From a virus, in IMG/VR virus record IMGVR_UViG_3300036913_000007, positions 1 through 27,289 of that record: 27,289 nt of DNA; one strand, 5' to 3'. Below are positions 15,341-23,748 of the stretch, piece by piece. The notes beneath the pieces were generated by a model. It was not told the origin of the DNA. It saw nothing but the letters and a program-made list of their open reading frames with translations, and did not search any database. Both the position numbers and the translations under genes were made by a program. How positions within the stretch are numbered: the first letter of the stretch is position 1; each line of letters starts with the position of its first letter.

Positions 15341-15361
15341 GTGAAATCTGAAAAATCTTTT
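15321..15361. repeat. 13-bp perfect inverted repeat spanning a promoter
   Basis: AAAAGATTTTTCA and its exact reverse complement (15321-15333 and 15349-15361) flank a 15-base core that contains the -35 box. The outer arm is the upstream element and the inner arm fills the spacer. An inverted repeat at this position is a typical repressor operator. A terminator is less likely since the stem is AT-rich. Confidence 0.75.
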
Positions 15362-15654
15362 CAGCGCAGGATGCCCTCGCGCAGCAGGAGGAGCCAGGTG
15401 CGCTCCATCGACGTATCGAACCCCATCTGCGGCATCTTGTGGCTGTCGTAATCCGAGTGACAACGGGAACACAGGAACGCAATGTAACAGTCGTGCGCCT
15501 TGATCCCCACGCCCTTACCGTGGGACATCGTGTTCGAGTGAGCCGCTACGGTGGTCCCATCGTTCCTCCCGCAGTATTGACAGGGACGATCCCTTGCAGC
15601 CTGGAGTATCTTCTTGTTTCGGTAGTGCGTCTGCTTGAAGTTCGGCTCACTCAT
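15361..15654 (-). CDS. YbcO-like recombination nuclease (DUF1364)
   Basis: This 97-residue protein opens with a basic helix (NKKILQAARDRPCQYCG), then AAHSNTMSHGKGVGIKAHDCYIAFLCSRCHSDYD. The CxxC...CxxCH zinc ligands, the AHS histidine and the GKGVGIKAHD stretch fit the YbcO/DUF1364 family. That family has an HNH-like fold and is thought to cut recombination intermediates such as D-loops. It fits its place at the end of the recombination operon. The ATG at 15654 overlaps the previous stop (ATGA). A GTG at 15666 is the alternative. Its stop codon is the first part of the following promoter's upstream element. Confidence 0.75.
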   Translation of the reverse strand: MSEPNFKQTHYRNKKILQAARDRPCQYCGRNDGTTVAAHSNTMSHGKGVGIKAHDCYIAFLCSRCHSDYDSHKMPQMGFDTSMERTWLLLLREGILR

Positions 15655-15929
15655 GTTGGCGCCCACACTTTCGAGGAGTCTACCTCAATCGCGATGCAGC
15701 CGGAGGAGAGCCGTTTATTGAGAATCGCCTGTCGTTCCAGGGAGTCCATCCATGCCAGATCGCCAGCAGTCTCCGGGAGGCGGCAAATACAGTGTCTGTG
15801 TGGACCGAGGGAAAGAATGTAGGGGTAGTAGTTGCCATGATAAAACTCTCTATCCCAATCCCGCTCCGCCTCTCTTTCGTCTGCAACGTCCCTCGTCACG
15901 CGGATCACCTTAATCTTCGGTGTACCCAT
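15651..15929 (-). CDS. Hypothetical protein
   Basis: The product has 92 residues. The ATG at 15929 follows GGGAGGGAG, within the last codons of the preceding gene, with a 20-base overlap. It begins with a beta strand (PKIKVIRVTRDV), then an acidic/basic helix (ADEREAERDWDREF). The centre contains HRHCICRLP, and the end has SSGCIAIEVDSSKVW. The His/Cys cluster could bind a metal. No family is recognised. Confidence 0.5.
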   Translation of the reverse strand: MGTPKIKVIRVTRDVADEREAERDWDREFYHGNYYPYILSLGPHRHCICRLPETAGDLAWMDSLERQAILNKRLSSGCIAIEVDSSKVWAPT

Positions 15930-16353: not shown

Positions 16354-16601
16354 TGAACTCCCCGGCGCCTGAAGATACGGCTGAAGAGTCTCGCCACGAG
16401 TCCCGTCTTCTTGGTCTCTGGTGCGGGGGTGGGGGGCCCGAGGGTCTTGCTCGGCTTCGGGAACTTACGCCTCTTCGCGTTCTCCAGCACCTCCCCAAAC
16501 TCCCGGTAACACTTCCCGCAGATTCTTCCGCCCCACACCTTGTTGTTCATGGAGAACCGCTTTGGTGTACTCTTCCCGCATCGCTTGCAGGTGACGTTCA
16601 T
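16350..16601 (-). CDS. Small zinc-ribbon protein
   Basis: The product has 83 residues. CKRCGKSTPKRF and ICGKCYREF form a CxxC...CxxC zinc ribbon at residues 5-32. A basic and Pro-rich linker follows, and the C-terminus is a basic amphipathic stretch (GLVARLFSRIFRRRGVQ) that could bind membrane or nucleic acid. GGGAGG precedes the ATG at 16601, which overlaps the annealase stop. Confidence 0.6.
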   Translation of the reverse strand: MNVTCKRCGKSTPKRFSMNNKVWGGRICGKCYREFGEVLENAKRRKFPKPSKTLGPPTPAPETKKTGLVARLFSRIFRRRGVQ

Positions 16602-17716
16602 TTCTTGCCTCCCGTGACCTGGGTGAGTTTCGCATTGAGCGAGCCGACGAGGATGTCGCGCTCCTGGTCCGTCAACATTCCCTTCTCGATCCGCCCCTTG
16701 ATCGTGAGAAGAACCGAGACCTTCGACGCTTCCTCGATCTGCGACATCAGGCTCGCAGCGGGGGAAACCGTCTTGGCCTTTTTTGCCTCGGATTTGGGCT
16801 TCGGCTCGGGCTTGGGTGCCGGTGCAGGCTCCGGGGTAGATCGTTCAACCACGGGTGGTTTCCGCTCCGGCGTGGGGGCCTCTGCCGGTGCTCCCGATCC
16901 GTCAAAGAGTGCCGGTCGGGGTGGAGGCGGAAATGCGGCCACAAACGCAGCCACAACCTTATCGAACTCGACCTGGGTCAACTCCTGCCGGTCGAGCATC
17001 GCCTTCGCCTCGCGCCCGAGGGCCTGCGCCCCAGGCTTGTCTGCCGCCCTTCCCTTCGCCTCAATCGCAATGATGGCGTTCTGGAGCCACTGTTTCGGGT
17101 CCATTTTGGTGGGAACATCTTCCTGTTTAACGACCGTCTCTGTCGAGACCACCTCGGTCTTCAGGGTGGGGGCGATAGACGTGGGGAGTGGAACCGTGAC
17201 GGCGTCCTTCAGTCCCTCGATCTCAGACTCGTCCATCATGCCGAGACCCAAGAGAGCGAGCACCGCCCGACGCTTCGCCTTTGTCATCGCCTTCATCCGG
17301 GCGTTCGCGAGGTCTTCACCCTTGAGGCCGAGTACGGCAACGCTACCGTCTTCGACGGTGAAACGTCCGTCCGGCATAGAGGCTTTGATCGTCACGGTGT
17401 AGATGTCTTCGTCCTTCTCTTTCGCAACCACGTCGTGACTGATTTTGTACTGGAGAGAGAGCTGTTGGGTGGCCCCCTTGTCCGCGTAGAGGATCAGTTT
17501 GCCTTTCAGGGTGAGTAGTTTGAAGGGTTGCGTTGCAGGGTCAAGTCCAACACGTTCGCAAAGGGCGTTGTAGTATGCAACACGCTGAGTAGGGGTCAAC
17601 TTGGACAAGTCCCCATTTAGGACCAGGGAAGCGACAACATCCGCATCCAATCCTGCGGCGGTGTTAGCCACGGCCTGATCCACCCCACGTTTCGCAATAT
17701 CTTGCACGTTTGTCAT
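16598..17716 (-). CDS. Annealase-like recombination protein (probable partner of YqaJ exonuclease)
   Basis: The product has 372 residues. Residues ~35-190 form the conserved part: LTPTQRVAYYNALCERVGLDPATQPF, LKGKLILYADKGATQQLS, then ANARMKAMTKAKRRAVLALLGLGMMDESE. This pattern recurs in phage proteins next to YqaJ exonucleases and SSB and resembles RecT/Rad52-like single-strand annealing proteins, though I cannot confirm the fold. A Pro/Ala/Glu-rich linker (~275-325) leads to a helical C-terminus. I chose the ATG at 17716, which has GGAG upstream and overlaps the preceding HNH stop (ATGA). The ATG at 17731 has no site. Confidence 0.65.
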   Translation of the reverse strand: MTNVQDIAKRGVDQAVANTAAGLDADVVASLVLNGDLSKLTPTQRVAYYNALCERVGLDPATQPFKLLTLKGKLILYADKGATQQLSLQYKISHDVVAKEKDEDIYTVTIKASMPDGRFTVEDGSVAVLGLKGEDLANARMKAMTKAKRRAVLALLGLGMMDESEIEGLKDAVTVPLPTSIAPTLKTEVVSTETVVKQEDVPTKMDPKQWLQNAIIAIEAKGRAADKPGAQALGREAKAMLDRQELTQVEFDKVVAAFVAAFPPPPRPALFDGSGAPAEAPTPERKPPVVERSTPEPAPAPKPEPKPKSEAKKAKTVSPAASLMSQIEEASKVSVLLTIKGRIEKGMLTDQERDILVGSLNAKLTQVTGGKK

Positions 17717-18099
17717 CGAAAGGTTCTCCATGTTTTATTGAGACCAATTTGGGAAATGTTGGAAGGGTCACACCCCACATCTCGCGCTATCGCCCTGCGT
17801 GATTCTCCACTTCGGAGACGAGCGCGAATCTGGGTAACCATTGGCCAGGTGAGCTTTTTCCCGGCCCTGCGCTTTTGTGCTTTGTCCCGCATATTGTCTG
17901 CGTGTGTTCCTAAGAATAGGTGCTCCGGATTGACGCAGGGAGGGTTATCGCAATGGTGGCAGACACATATCCCTTTGGGGATCGGTCCATTGACGGCCTC
18001 CCAGGCGGCACGATGAGCATACCGGGTTGATCCCCCGTCCCTGAAGGTACCGTACCCCCTCGTCGTCCTTCCTCCCACCCAAATCCAGCAGTCGGTCAT
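17713..18099 (-). CDS. HNH endonuclease, HNH_3 type (homing)
   Basis: This 128-residue protein starts at an ATGA overlap with the exonuclease stop. It opens with CWIWVGGRTTRGYGTF and continues YAHRAAWEAVNGPIPKGICVCHHCDNPPCVNPEHLFLGT, the HNH_3 core with HHCDNPxCxNPxH. A C-terminal helix-turn-helix (SRRAIARDVGCDPSNISQI) gives DNA specificity, and the end reads NKTWR. All catalytic residues are present. It is a paralogue of the endonuclease at 19025-19429. Its last codons TGGAGA provide the GGAG site for the annealase gene. Confidence 0.85.
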   Translation of the reverse strand: MTDCWIWVGGRTTRGYGTFRDGGSTRYAHRAAWEAVNGPIPKGICVCHHCDNPPCVNPEHLFLGTHADNMRDKAQKRRAGKKLTWPMVTQIRARLRSGESRRAIARDVGCDPSNISQIGLNKTWRTFR

Positions 18100-19028
18100 G
18101 GGAGTTTTGCGCCCTTTTCTCTTTTCAGGGAAAACACTCGAATATCCTTCGCTGTTACGGCAAAAGCAGCCTTATGCTGAATAGAGTAAGTCGCCAGGAC
18201 CCGTTCGCCTTCTACCAGGTTTTCATATTCTCCAACGAAGACTACCAGCTCCGCCTTCAACTCCTTCTCGATCTTCTCCAGCTCGGTGATCTTTGACTTC
18301 ACCGAAACGAGGGAGGCGACCTTTTCCTTGATCTCCTCTGTCGCCTCGATCTTCGATCCCAGCTCCGGCTTCATGCTCTCGGTGTCCCGAGCGGCAACGG
18401 GGATGTCTGTGACATCACCGAAGACTACCGCGTTGTGGAACTTCACCGCCGCGTCCACCATCACCTTCTCGAACTCCTCACTCCAGTCCACGTCCAGCCG
18501 GATAAACTTCTTCTTGTCGAGAACGGCCACCCAGATGATCGCCCTCCTGTAACCCGTGACGAACATCTGCCACTGGAGCTGCGCGTAGTACGACGTGGGA
18601 ACCGCTGCATCCCAGGCGCCCACCGCATAGCTCGTGGTGGTCTTCAGCTCCAGGATGATCGGATTGCCGTCACCAACAATCAGCCGGTCGAGGTTGCAGG
18701 TGGCCCAGGGGAACGCAGCGTGTCGCCTGATCTTGTTGTCGCGCTGCACACCATACTTCCCCGCCTCTTCGACCCCACCCTTCGGGAAAAAGTCCGGGTT
18801 CTTGCGCTGGAACATCAGGGCGCAGAAGTCTTCCAGCTCTGTCCCCCACTCGGTGTTGTCGTTCCCCTCAAACTCGGGAGCGAGGCCCACCTTCTTGTTG
18901 AAGAGTTCTCGGGGGGTCTCGTAGTTATTGAGCTGAAGAATCGCGCCGATGTCGGAGGAGCCGATGGTGTCCCTCCGCTGCGCTAACCAGTCCGCCCGAT
19001 CCATTCCAACGGTTGATACAGAGTTCAT
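18096..19028 (-). CDS. YqaJ-like viral exonuclease (lambda Exo family)
   Basis: The 310-residue product is a 5'-3' exonuclease that produces single-stranded ends for annealing. Motif I is RRDTIGSSDIGAILQLN (a Ser-Ser-Asp core). The nuclease core is CNLDRLI followed by IILELKTTTS, the D...ExK pair of the PD-(D/E)XK fold. YYAQLQWQMFVTGY is the conserved QLQ helix. The C-terminal 100 residues are a Glu/Lys-rich coiled coil (KSKITELEKIEKELKAEL). The ATG at 19028 overlaps the preceding HNH stop (ATGA) and uses GGAGG encoded by that gene's tail. A GTG at 19040 is rejected. Confidence 0.85.
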   Translation of the reverse strand: MNSVSTVGMDRADWLAQRRDTIGSSDIGAILQLNNYETPRELFNKKVGLAPEFEGNDNTEWGTELEDFCALMFQRKNPDFFPKGGVEEAGKYGVQRDNKIRRHAAFPWATCNLDRLIVGDGNPIILELKTTTSYAVGAWDAAVPTSYYAQLQWQMFVTGYRRAIIWVAVLDKKKFIRLDVDWSEEFEKVMVDAAVKFHNAVVFGDVTDIPVAARDTESMKPELGSKIEATEEIKEKVASLVSVKSKITELEKIEKELKAELVVFVGEYENLVEGERVLATYSIQHKAAFAVTAKDIRVFSLKREKGAKLP

Positions 19029-19429
19029 CCCAGCCTCCACGTTTTGTTGTGAATGATACTAAAAATCCTTGAGTGGGATACGTTAAAAATTGTCGCAAGC
19101 TGGCGCATCGAGAAACCACGCACACCGCGAACAACACCCACCTCTTCCCATGTTAGTTTTGCGGCGCGTCCGGCCTTCTCGCCACGATGATCCCCGCCAC
19201 GTCTCTTCGCCTCTCGATCTCTCGCATTGTCAGCGGGAGTTCCCAAGAAAAGATGGTCGGGATTGACGCATGGCGGGTTGTCGCAATGGTGACAGACGCA
19301 CATCCCGGGCGGTATTGGACCGTTGACCGCCTCCCACGCAACGCGATGGGCCTTCCGGGTTGACCCACTCCAGTGTAGTTGTCCGTACCCATAAGCGTCG
19401 GCAGAGTGCCGCCAAATCCAACATCCCAT
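19025..19429 (-). CDS. HNH endonuclease, HNH_3 type (homing)
   Basis: This 134-residue protein has GGAGGG upstream and its ATG shares a base with the preceding TAA (TAATG). The HNH_3 core reads KAHRVAWEAVNGPIPPGMCVC followed by HHCDNPPCVNPDHLFLGT, nearly identical to the paralogue at 17713. The C-terminal helix-turn-helix (MRQLATIFNVSHSRIFSII) and closing NKTWR match too, whereas the linker differs (RRGGDHRGEKAGRAAK). It lies between the gene at 19429 and the exonuclease gene, and its TGGAGG codons supply the latter's ribosome site. Confidence 0.85.
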   Translation of the reverse strand: MGCWIWRHSADAYGYGQLHWSGSTRKAHRVAWEAVNGPIPPGMCVCHHCDNPPCVNPDHLFLGTPADNARDREAKRRGGDHRGEKAGRAAKLTWEEVGVVRGVRGFSMRQLATIFNVSHSRIFSIIHNKTWRLG

Positions 19430-19665
19430 TATACGCCCTCCACTTTGATCGTGATCTCCGAGAGAATCTTGTCGAGCTTCGCCTTCTGTCGTGCAGCGGC
19501 CCCGTCGATCACCATTGCGACCGTGTCGCGGTCCCGCTGGTCGAGGACGTTGTTGCGGCTCCCATTCCTGGTTGACCGAGCGTGGGATTCAATGTCCTGG
19601 ATGTCGGTCTGGATACGGGCAACATCCCGGTAGAGTTCCCGGAGCTGTTCCATCGTGATCGCCAT
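19429..19665 (-). CDS. Small helical hypothetical protein
   Basis: The product has 78 residues, with GAGAGG before the ATG at 19665. It is nearly all helix: MEQLRELYRDVARIQTDIQDIESHARS followed by a basic loop and AMVIDGAAARQKAKLDKILSEITIKVE, which suggests an antiparallel coiled coil. It may be an accessory factor to the exonuclease, given its position, but no family is recognised. Confidence 0.55.
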   Translation of the reverse strand: MAITMEQLRELYRDVARIQTDIQDIESHARSTRNGSRNNVLDQRDRDTVAMVIDGAAARQKAKLDKILSEITIKVEGV

Positions 19666-21089: not shown

Positions 21090-23132
21090 TTATTTTAGGT
21101 TCGGGTTTTTGAAGTGATATTTCCACGCATCGGAAGAGTAAAATCCTTTGTCAAAAAATGGATGCCACGCTACCTTGACGTTGTGGATGATGCCGTGATC
21201 GTCCTGGTCGAACTCCAGCGTGACACCTCCAACGTGGGCGGCAATCTCTTTCTTCCGCATGAAGGGCGTCTGGTCTTCAGTACAGTTATGAACCGCGATG
21301 CCTCCGGCGATATACGTGTGATCTTCCTCTACGTCGAGATTGTAGACAACCTCCCGTTTCCGTCGTTTCGGCACTATCTCTGTCACAGAGATCACCCGAA
21401 CCTTCGCCAATCCCATTTCCGGGTCTATCGCATAGTCCGTGCGTGGTTGGGCTTTTCTGGTGGACACGGGGACCCAGAGCACCTCGTCGATGAACTCCAT
21501 GATCGGAGAACCAACATATTTGTTCTGTTTGAACTCCAGAAGTGCTCCACGCGAACGCTCGGACTCAATTGCAACAACCTTACCGTCCTTGAAACCAATC
21601 GCGTCCGGAATCACTCCGGCACCAACCGGAACGACTTTCCACCCCATCTCCTGTAGCTCGCGGCATAGCGGCAGGATGTCGCGTTGCATGTGCGTGTCTC
21701 CGTCCGAGCCGCCCCGGGTTCTTTCTTTCGATCCACCCCTGGATATTGCGATCTTCTCTCGCACAGCGGGATCATCTACCGGATTGCATGAGACACACAT
21801 CTTACCCCACCACGGAATCTTGGTCCCACACGCCCGACAAGTTGTCGTCTGAGTAAACACCAAATCTCCAGCCTTAACGTTCTTAGCTGCCATCCAACAC
21901 CGAATACCCGACCTTTCGATTAATATAGGATGCTCCTCCGTTGCCACAACCGATTGATCGGGGCGACCTTTGCGGCCATAATTGATCCGTACTCGCATCT
22001 GGCCTGACATTCGCCGGAAAACCCTTACTACTTTTCTGGCTTTCCCGTCGGCACAAATCACTTCATCCCCAGTCTTCATCTTGCGAATCGGCGTACGTCC
22101 CATCGGCGTCAGTACGCTTGTGTTACCCGTAAAGCATCCTACCTGAATCGCCGTGACCTCCCGGGGATAGGAGTGATCGAACTTGTGGAAGTGTCCGATG
22201 CACAGGATGTTGGGCTTCTCGCTACCCTGGTAACTCTCGACGATCTTCTGACTCTTGTAGCTGATCGCGTAGGCCGTCCCTCCTCCACCGTGGATCAGGC
22301 GCATGATCGACCGGCCATCACCTACGCGCAGGTCCATCGTGTGTTCCATGTGTCCCAGATACTTCAGGTCGTGACGCCCCTGGGACTCCGCCTCGAACTG
22401 AATGTGGCGGCCAATGTCGATTCCCTCGCGCTGCACATACCAGCCCTCGTGATCGTCGCCTGTGACGAAGCACGTCTCCATTCCCGTGCGTTGGGGCCAG
22501 TTGTCGATCAGGTAGTCCGTTTGTCCGCCGATCCCCTTCACCAGAAGATCGTGGACATTGAACCGTGCCTCACCGTCGATGATGTTGCCACACTGGTAGA
22601 CGGTCTCGACGCCCTCCTCTTTCCAGATATCAAAGAGAGCGTTGAGCACATCGAGGCGCGAATACTTCGAGCCGAGATGGTTGTCCCCGGTGAGTCCGTA
22701 GATGTGGTGCTTGAACTTCCACTTACTCATGTCGATGACGCGGGTGGGACTCGGGACGATAGTGTTTTGCAGCTCCACCGAGAGGTGGTCCGAAACGATG
22801 TTGTACCCCTTCTCCACGAGACCGTTGACCGCGATCAGCACGTCGGCCACGTCCACGCGCATCATCCTGGCAAGGTCCGCGTAGCCCACGCTGGCGCTTT
22901 TCAGTAGGATGACGTGCAGCCTCTCTACCAGGGCGTCACGGTCCACCGGGGGAGGCACGGGAACAGGTTTGGCTGGCCTGTCCTTTTTCATCTCGTGGTA
23001 GATATCGCGAAACCGTTTGTTCGAGAAGGAGCCTCCCAGCCGTACCAGGGCCTGCGCCTCTTCGAGATTCTCACCTGCCGCGATATGGAAGGCGATCCTG
23101 GTTCTCAATTCACCGTCGCTGAGTGATGCCAT
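21090..23132 (-). CDS. Metallophosphoesterase interrupted by an intein
   Basis: The precursor has 680 residues (about 396 after splicing). Residues 65-120 form a winged helix (DLARMMRVDVADVLIAVNGLVEKG). The calcineurin-like phosphatase domain shows GLTGDNHLG (first metal motif), CGNIIDGE, FVTGDDHEGW, RLIHGGGG and IGHFHKF (last motif, GHxH). SbcD/Mre11-like phage enzymes with these motifs act on nucleic acids or nucleotides. The reading continues through an intein at 21285-22136, placed shortly after the GHFH motif, then resumes with CTEDQTPFMRKKEIAA. GGAGTTC precedes the ATG at 23132; the frame upstream has no site. Confidence 0.8.
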   Translation of the reverse strand: MASLSDGELRTRIAFHIAAGENLEEAQALVRLGGSFSNKRFRDIYHEMKKDRPAKPVPVPPPVDRDALVERLHVILLKSASVGYADLARMMRVDVADVLIAVNGLVEKGYNIVSDHLSVELQNTIVPSPTRVIDMSKWKFKHHIYGLTGDNHLGSKYSRLDVLNALFDIWKEEGVETVYQCGNIIDGEARFNVHDLLVKGIGGQTDYLIDNWPQRTGMETCFVTGDDHEGWYVQREGIDIGRHIQFEAESQGRHDLKYLGHMEHTMDLRVGDGRSIMRLIHGGGGTAYAISYKSQKIVESYQGSEKPNILCIGHFHKFDHSYPREVTAIQVGCFTGNTSVLTPMGRTPIRKMKTGDEVICADGKARKVVRVFRRMSGQMRVRINYGRKGRPDQSVVATEEHPILIERSGIRCWMAAKNVKAGDLVFTQTTTCRACGTKIPWWGKMCVSCNPVDDPAVREKIAISRGGSKERTRGGSDGDTHMQRDILPLCRELQEMGWKVVPVGAGVIPDAIGFKDGKVVAIESERSRGALLEFKQNKYVGSPIMEFIDEVLWVPVSTRKAQPRTDYAIDPEMGLAKVRVISVTEIVPKRRKREVVYNLDVEEDHTYIAGGIAVHNCTEDQTPFMRKKEIAAHVGGVTLEFDQDDHGIIHNVKVAWHPFFDKGFYSSDAWKYHFKNPNLK
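21285..22136 (-). other. Intein with probable PD-(D/E)XK homing endonuclease
   Basis: The insert spans 284 codons. It begins with Cys in GCFTGNTSVLTPMG (block A) and has ATEEHPILI (block B, TxxH-like). It ends with VVYNLDVEEDHTYIAGG (block F) and AVHN followed by Cys (block G), so all splicing residues are present: N-terminal Cys, penultimate His, terminal Asn, and +1 Cys. Between them lie a zinc ribbon (CRACGTKIPWWGKMCVSC) and a domain with VIPDAIGFKDGKVVAIESER, resembling PD-(D/E)XK nucleases, with Glu in place of the usual Lys. No LAGLIDADG or HNH motif is visible. Confidence 0.85.
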
Positions 23133-23133
23133 A

Positions 23134-23748
23134 TTAGAACTCCAAAAGGTAGAGAATGAGTGAGGCCCCACCAGAGATCAGGGCGCCGGTCGAGTTCTTC
23201 TGTTGAATGAAATAGGCCGTTGAACCGCCTCCAGCAAATAGCGCTGGCGCAGCCCAGGCGGGTGGGAACTTTGTCTTGGTGATCTCGGGGAGTGAGAGTT
23301 CTGTGGGGGTGAGCGTGAGGCCAAACTGTTGCTTCATAGGAACGTATGCCAGCGCCGCGTTGCCGTTTAAGTGTCCCTTGCCATCGAGGAGGTTGAATGA
23401 GAACGTCTGCACAGCTTGGTGGGGAGCCAGGAGCACAGCCAAACGGGAAGCAAGGGAGTCCTTGTTAGCCAAGAGCGTATCGAGCTGACCGCGAAGCGCG
23501 GCGTTCTCGTTCTGGAGCCATGCTGATTCGTAGACGGCGGTCGAGTCGATCCGGTCTCGGTAGACGATCTTCCCGGGAATCGCCACATAGGAAATCTCTG
23601 CCGGAGGTTTCACGATCACAGAGACCGTGTCGATCCGCGCTCCCTTCAGGGCCTCATGTTTGCCGGAATAGAACCCGACACAGAAGATCAGCACAAACAT
23701 CCCGACACCAATCAGGACATCCTTGTTCTTGGTGATAAATTCGTTCAC
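23134..23748 (-). CDS. Spanin-like membrane protein of the lysis cassette
   Basis: The 204-residue product uses a GTG start at 23748 (GTGA overlap, GGAG upstream). A membrane segment lies at residues 9-29 (KDVLIGVGMFVLIFCVGFYSG). A strand-rich part follows, then a coiled coil (AWLQNENAALRGQLDTLLANKDSLASRLAVL). The C-terminus has two hydrophobic stretches (AWAAPALFAGGG and STGALISGGASLILYLLEF). An N-terminal anchor plus periplasmic coiled coil and a position beside lytic enzymes resemble inner-membrane spanins. The C-terminal hydrophobic end is unusual and might touch the outer membrane, making a one-gene spanin. No lipobox is present. Confidence 0.5.
   Translation of the reverse strand: MNEFITKNKDVLIGVGMFVLIFCVGFYSGKHEALKGARIDTVSVIVKPPAEISYVAIPGKIVYRDRIDSTAVYESAWLQNENAALRGQLDTLLANKDSLASRLAVLLAPHQAVQTFSFNLLDGKGHLNGNAALAYVPMKQQFGLTLTPTELSLPEITKTKFPPAWAAPALFAGGGSTAYFIQQKNSTGALISGGASLILYLLEF

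Follow-up and report, generated by a model that had tools for sequence, protein, structure and literature searches.

Two HNH_3-family endonuclease genes in a virus fragment, and their relatives in T7-like phages, are probably explained by capture and replacement of a ribosome-binding site (RBS): the endonuclease would take over the RBS of the gene before which it inserts, and its own last codons would supply a new Shine-Dalgarno (SD) site. The fragment is IMG/VR virus record IMGVR_UViG_3300036913_000007, positions 1 to 27,289, and this whole stretch of 27,289 nucleotides (nt) is called the window below. Its two HNH_3 genes, designated HNH-A and HNH-B, each lie directly 5' of a recombination gene, HNH-A before a gene for a putative annealing protein and HNH-B before a YqaJ-family exonuclease gene. 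All of these genes are on the minus strand.

The proposed mechanism has several steps. The HNH_3 genes would be free-standing homing-type endonuclease genes that sit in the gap between a core gene's start codon and the RBS that once served it. That RBS would now start the endonuclease, and the last endonuclease codons would form a replacement SD at about the right spacing from the core-gene ATG, which overlaps the endonuclease stop. These tail codons would be shaped by a conserved Thr-Trp-Arg/Lys motif that follows the helix-turn-helix. TGG is the sole Trp codon, and AGR for Arg completes GGAG. The core gene may then be started by ribosomes finishing the endonuclease, or by direct binding to the new SD.

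SD-like sites in the tails of two HNH_3 genes

The features at the two junctions are listed below.

19025..19429, minus strand: HNH-B, HNH_3 endonuclease gene, 134 amino acids, C-terminus NKTWRLG before the stop (PF13392, E=1.3e-16)
19034..19038, minus strand: GGAGG, SD-like site from the HNH-B Trp-Arg codons TGG-AGG, 5-nt spacer to the exonuclease ATG (predicted anti-SD pairing -9.3 kcal/mol)
19025..19028, minus strand: ATGA, exonuclease start overlapping the HNH-B stop
18096..19028, minus strand: YqaJ-family exonuclease, 310 amino acids from the overlapping ATG (PF09588, E=1.8e-23; phrog_434, RecE-like exonuclease)
17713..18099, minus strand: HNH-A, HNH_3 endonuclease gene, 128 amino acids, C-terminus NKTWRTFR before the stop (PF13392, E=1.2e-16)
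17725..17729, minus strand: GGAGA, SD-like site from the HNH-A Trp-Arg codons TGG-AGA, 8-nt spacer to the annealase-like ATG (predicted anti-SD pairing -6.4 kcal/mol)
17713..17716, minus strand: ATGA, annealase-like gene start overlapping the HNH-A stop
16598..17716, minus strand: putative RAD52-like single-strand annealing protein, 372 amino acids (fold match of an AlphaFold model)
19436..19441, minus strand: GGAGGG ahead of the HNH-B start, spacer CGTATA (predicted pairing -9.8 kcal/mol)

HNH-A and HNH-B scored about 60 bits against PF13392, for which the curated cut-off is 24.8, and thus belong to the HNH_3 family; they are 55% identical to each other. An earlier account made from the letters of the window (the sequence-only reading) had both genes ending in NKTWR. 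The motif was present in both, followed by two residues (LG) in HNH-B and three (TFR) in HNH-A. The 3' end of HNH-B reads AAC AAA ACG TGG AGG CTG GGA TGA, with the exonuclease ATG at 19028-19026 within GGATGA, and that of HNH-A reads AAT AAA ACA TGG AGA ACC TTT CGA TGA, with the ATG of the annealase-like gene at 17716-17714. The same account had TGG-AGG or TGG-AGA place an SD before an ATG that overlaps the endonuclease stop, and this was confirmed, with GGAGG and GGAGA at 5 and 8 nt. The pairing energies of -9.3 and -6.4 kcal/mol were computed for TGGAGG and TGGAGA. The SD-bearing stretches before the core-gene ATGs are TGGAGGCTGGG and TGGAGAACCTTTCG. At both junctions the start overlaps the stop as in other ATGA pairs, and the SD lies inside the upstream coding sequence at 5-10 nt.

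This anatomy of the window and its recurrence in homologues are evident in the sequences themselves. From general knowledge of initiation, the tail SDs would be expected to drive translation of the core genes. By analogy with the T7-like sites described below, the GGAGGG ahead of HNH-B is possibly the former RBS of the exonuclease gene, captured by HNH-B. The leader of HNH-A is weak (predicted pairing -4.4 kcal/mol), so for the annealase-like gene the tail SD would be an improvement on restoring that leader.

Occupied and empty sites in T7-like phages

Occupied and empty alleles were seen in a patchy distribution for the T7-like homologues; for the window phage, the searches gave no close relative to compare in this way. 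T7 gene 7.7, an HNH_3 gene, ends in KTWRHI and a stop (aagacaTGGAGAcacatttaATG), and the ATG in this stretch is the start of portal gene 8. In empty T7-group relatives, which have no 7.7, the ATG of gene 8 is preceded by CAGGAGGTGACAC, a leader conserved in about 20 distinct empty sequences. In T7 and HZ2R8, this leader of gene 8 now lies 5' of the endonuclease start, and gene 8 has a tail-derived TGGAGA or TGGAGG. The T7 copy differs from the empty leader in a few bases at the 3' end, is one base shorter and aligns with it only with a gap. TGG-AGR was found 10-11 nt before the gene 8 ATG in 6/6 occupied genomes (T7, HZ2R8, CR44b, EcoR1, KM02 and Katbat). The predicted initiation pairing of gene 8 was -11.6 kcal/mol in the empty relatives and -6.4 kcal/mol in T7.

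We compared 40 nt of the endonuclease leader in occupied genomes with the core-gene leader in empty relatives, which at genes 3, 16 and 5 belong to the same genus. The two were identical at 37/40 positions for gene 8 (HZ2R8), 32/40 for gene 3 (T7 2.8), 36/40 for gene 16 (Klebsiella phage phi1_146023, or Kp146023, against empty Henu1) and 40/40 for gene 5 (CR44b against empty KM02). The present leaders of these four core genes matched the empty ones at only 6-11/40 positions. The codons that write the replacement SD differed by site: W-R at gene 8 (six genomes), G-R-R at gene 3, G-G-E at gene 5, where the start lies in T-W (acATGG), and G-E at gene 16, where it lies in T-Y. At gene 5.5, the old SD GGAAGGAG of CR44b has decayed to GGAAAGAG in occupied KM02 and EcoR1, and the endonuclease tail gives AAGGAG. 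At the level of nucleotide sequence, the endonuclease has captured the native RBS at genes 8, 3, 16 and 5 of T7-like phages, with a new SD in its tail. The expectation that insertion leaves the core gene with a start signal was borne out at these natural empty sites, where the native RBS is displaced and a tail SD is supplied. Gene 3.5 of JacobBurckhardt resembles a capture; it was not counted, the leader identity being just 13/40 ungapped.

The Trp-Arg codons might instead read a pre-existing native SD, if the endonuclease open reading frame (ORF) lost its own stop and extended into the leader of the core gene. The sequence-only reading had proposed to look in HNH-less relatives for equally placed SDs, and the outcome differed by site. 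At CR44b gene 19, the identical gctggagggactctATG is present in empty KM02 and EcoR1, as an extended ORF would have it, and this site was rejected as a case of supplied SD because the empty relatives carry the same bases. At genes 8, 3, 16 and 5, however, nothing in the empty leaders corresponds to the tail SD, the native leader stands ahead of the endonuclease, and the native-SD explanation is already refuted for these four T7-group sites. Furthermore, TW is conserved in the protein regardless of a downstream start. We consider run-on into a native SD quite improbable as the general explanation.

Two sites showed other arrangements. At gene 19 (L379 36120-36215, L382 37955-38075), the endonuclease begins and ends with codons of native origin. 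A mini-ORF (GTGTTAAGTGATTAC...GAGGGACTCTATGTCTAA) is present in the empty relatives, and the endonuclease body seems to be inserted there in frame. In Shigella phage ESh1 (L386 13383-13796), the Trp is gone from the endonuclease that precedes the ligase gene (KLRKYI against KTWRHI), but an SD-like GAGGAAA is kept ahead of the ligase ATG.

The tail motif in HNH_3 homologues

The homologue set comprised 387 distinct HNH_3 ORFs in samples 1 and 2 and 130 in sample 3. About half of the HNH_3 ORFs kept a C-terminal Trp, with the consensus [GRN]-K-T-W-[KR]-H-[IV]. T-W was invariant in a nine-member alignment, indicating that the C-terminal Trp is a feature of the protein, and TW was kept whether or not a start followed. 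Between TGG and the next start, the commonest distance was 11 nt (19 tails of sample 1, 6 of sample 2 and 7 of sample 3, where 8 nt was equally common), which leaves about 8 nt between GGAGG and the ATG.

The sequence-only reading had suggested checking the TWR codons of HNH_3 homologues against the position of the next start, and an association was found. Over 270 homologue tails, with the window excluded, W was followed by AGA or AGG in 16/54 tails that have the next start 7-14 nt further on, against 14/216 others (p=1.4e-5). The 7-14 nt range was picked after sample 1 had been seen; samples 2 and 3 alone gave p=0.012. In samples 1 and 2, the association held after clustering, with p=5e-5 at 70% identity and p=4e-4 at 50%. 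The same two samples showed a bias of Arg codons towards AGR over CGN (p=0.006) and a pairing of tail length with overlap type (p=0.002).

Another group of HNH_3 genes (L011, L013, L014, L017, L019, L025, L031, L035, L036 and L047-L049) ends in TWQK or TWKK before the stop. In this group, the frame of the next gene (approximately M[AE]KIELREYQ) begins at a start codon that shares bases with the T-W codons (acATGG or GTGG). These tails provide the next gene with its predicted start codon, not with an SD.

A wider generalisation is possible, and we hold it tentatively, at rather less than even chances: HNH_3 genes may be start-codon invaders across many phage groups, which enter between RBS and ATG and take the RBS. 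The codons of their Thr-Trp-Arg/Lys DNA-binding tail would be preadapted as a replacement SD (or, as ACATGG, as a new start), and insertion into a core operon would be nearly neutral.

Comparison with ordinary overlapping genes

Any gene packed 5' of an ATGA start could carry the SD of the next gene, in which case there would be nothing peculiar to mobile endonucleases. We compared 34 HNH junctions with 590 ordinary overlapping pairs (ATGA or TAATG) from the same contigs. As ordinary overlap predicts, an SD core was present in 253/590 controls (43%), and their median pairing energy (-5.6) was the same as that of the HNH tails (-5.7). What ordinary overlap leaves unexplained is the placement of TGGAG at exactly -14..-10, seen in 10/34 HNH junctions and 3/590 controls, and the capture of the old RBS at the T7-like sites. 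We regard it as an unlikely explanation of the whole. An SD in the tail of the upstream gene is generic to overlapping genes, and only its position and wording (TGG-AGR) are specific to HNH genes. The proposal that Trp-Arg doubles as an SD stands as far as the codons are in the right place and recur in independent homologues; as a distinguishing property it is weakened by the generic frequency of upstream-encoded SDs and by tails that lack one.

Several results weigh against capture and replacement. The SD core was found in 16/34 HNH junctions (47%), little different from the controls, and on this comparison we rejected the idea that SDs are more frequent in HNH tails than in other overlapping genes. 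Among tails with the 11-nt distance from TGG to start, 10/20 had no SD core. The W-AGR association in sample 3 alone gave p=0.13, and neither the AGR-over-CGN bias nor the link between tail length and overlap type was seen in that sample; synonymous tuning of the tail codons did not replicate and is only suggestive. At CR44b gene 19, the native SD is kept and the endonuclease ORF runs into the native leader, and at T7 gene 5.5 a native SD is retained downstream of the endonuclease stop.

For the two loci of the window itself, we found no empty relative. In 50,697 phage records, the window operon had no nucleotide relatives except short HNH or ssb stretches. Relatives of the annealase-like protein and the exonuclease were only 27-50% identical and were too distant to serve as empty alleles; one of them (L003, a 44% relative of the annealase-like protein) has its own intergenic AGGAG. 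Since no empty relative was found, we only infer, by analogy with the T7-like phages, that the window loci arose by RBS capture.

Loss of the endonuclease

If the SD of an essential gene is embedded in the endonuclease gene, loss of the endonuclease would be lethal, and selection on the tail would retain the element as an addiction module. The sequence-only reading favoured such a cost of loss. For T4, it has been argued that promoters lying within endonuclease genes, segG for example, favour retention (PMC2988022), and engineered overlaps of like design lower the loss of a costly gene (PMC8528312). The T7-like sites point the other way. Start-to-start excision would restore the old RBS at genes 8, 3, 16 and 5, empty sites are common among T7-like relatives, and the native SD remains at CR44b gene 19 and T7 gene 5.5. 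In Escherichia phage KM02 (L382 15630-15985), an in-frame TGA, in place of the GGA of EcoR1, interrupts the endonuclease gene at the gene 5.5 site, yet the SD tail and the start of gene 5.5 are intact, indicating that nuclease function goes unprotected. In Hafnia phage Ca, a variant of a gene-19-site endonuclease with a 397-bp deletion was described; the authors link it to small plaques and think the virions non-infectious (PMC8861465). This variant does not test addiction, because the gene-19 site keeps a native SD in the related CR44b. That the tail SD makes loss of the endonuclease costly is weakly supported, and the sequences lean against it; an addiction module seems to us unlikely.

Other genes of the window operon

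The annealase-like protein had no Pfam or PHROG match. In a model built with distant homologues (mean predicted local distance difference test score 61), its best PDB matches were RAD52, Red-beta and Mgm101, with E values of about 1e-3 and probability of about 1. The name annealase, which the sequence-only reading gave to the 16598..17716 product, is therefore plausible on the modelled fold. Homologues with 44% identity occur in Paenibacillus genomes. Three further ORFs were noted.

19429..19665, minus strand: 78-amino-acid ORF from the ORF list, no family match in Pfam or PHROG; its 3' end overlaps the HNH-B start (TAATG)
21090-23171, minus strand: 693-amino-acid ORF with Hint and intein-splicing matches inside a Metallophos_2 match
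15361-15666, minus strand: 101-amino-acid ORF matching DUF968 / YbcO putative nuclease, a further nuclease-like gene of the operon

The 693-amino-acid ORF looks like a metallophosphoesterase with an intein, one more kind of mobile element in the same operon.

Relation to known systems and significance

That homing genes occur close to essential genes is well established (PMC10448857). It is also ordinary for an SD to be encoded in the upstream gene and for starts to overlap, and the embedding of promoters is known too: T4 segG/gene 32, segA, segE, mobB and mobC are free-standing homing endonucleases with embedded promoters of the downstream essential gene (PMC2988022). In the segG type, as here, a mobile endonuclease before an essential gene encodes an expression signal of that gene, and retention is argued to be favoured (PMC2988022). 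The signal there is a promoter, whereas here it is an SD, in some cases together with bases of the start codon, and the endonuclease takes the native RBS for itself. Displacement of the native signal and its replacement inside the homing endonuclease gene, as in the segG type, were seen at T7-group genes 8, 3, 16 and 5 and would apply to the window by analogy. T7 genes 7.7 and 2.8 and the related T7-like HNH genes share with the window the HNH_3 family, the tail motif (7.7), the position next to a core gene and the SD in the tail. They differ in their downstream genes and phage group, and the T7-group sites have empty relatives.

The Riboverlap / RiBoSor design (PMC8528312) likewise places the RBS and start of an essential gene inside the gene to be protected. 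Its engineered long overlaps guard against frameshifts, whereas the natural overlaps here, of 1-26 nt, protect only the tail. In ATGA/TAATG translational coupling, including the UAAUGA of nrdA/mobE (PMC2988022), the start also overlaps the upstream stop, and upstream translation may feed initiation. However, mobE is the downstream partner, limited by coupling, whereas here the SD comes from an endonuclease in the upstream position. In the ShiLan element (PMC11855218), a mobile HNH gene is also arranged with the host gene still translated, but it lies out of frame inside a phage methylase gene and is read through, and no SD is supplied. In the searchable literature we found no description of HNH endonucleases that capture an RBS and replace it from their tail; older T7/T3 comparisons lie outside it, and prior notice there is possible.

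Capture and replacement would give a testable answer to the question of how free-standing homing endonucleases settle in packed core operons without silencing the next gene. In the T7 portal gene 8, as in several other T7-like core genes, it appears to be the codons of a parasite that set the translation start. Such insertions alter predicted initiation strength, as at gene 8 (from -11.6 to -6.4 kcal/mol), and phage genome annotation and refactoring should handle endonuclease tails as regulatory sequence.

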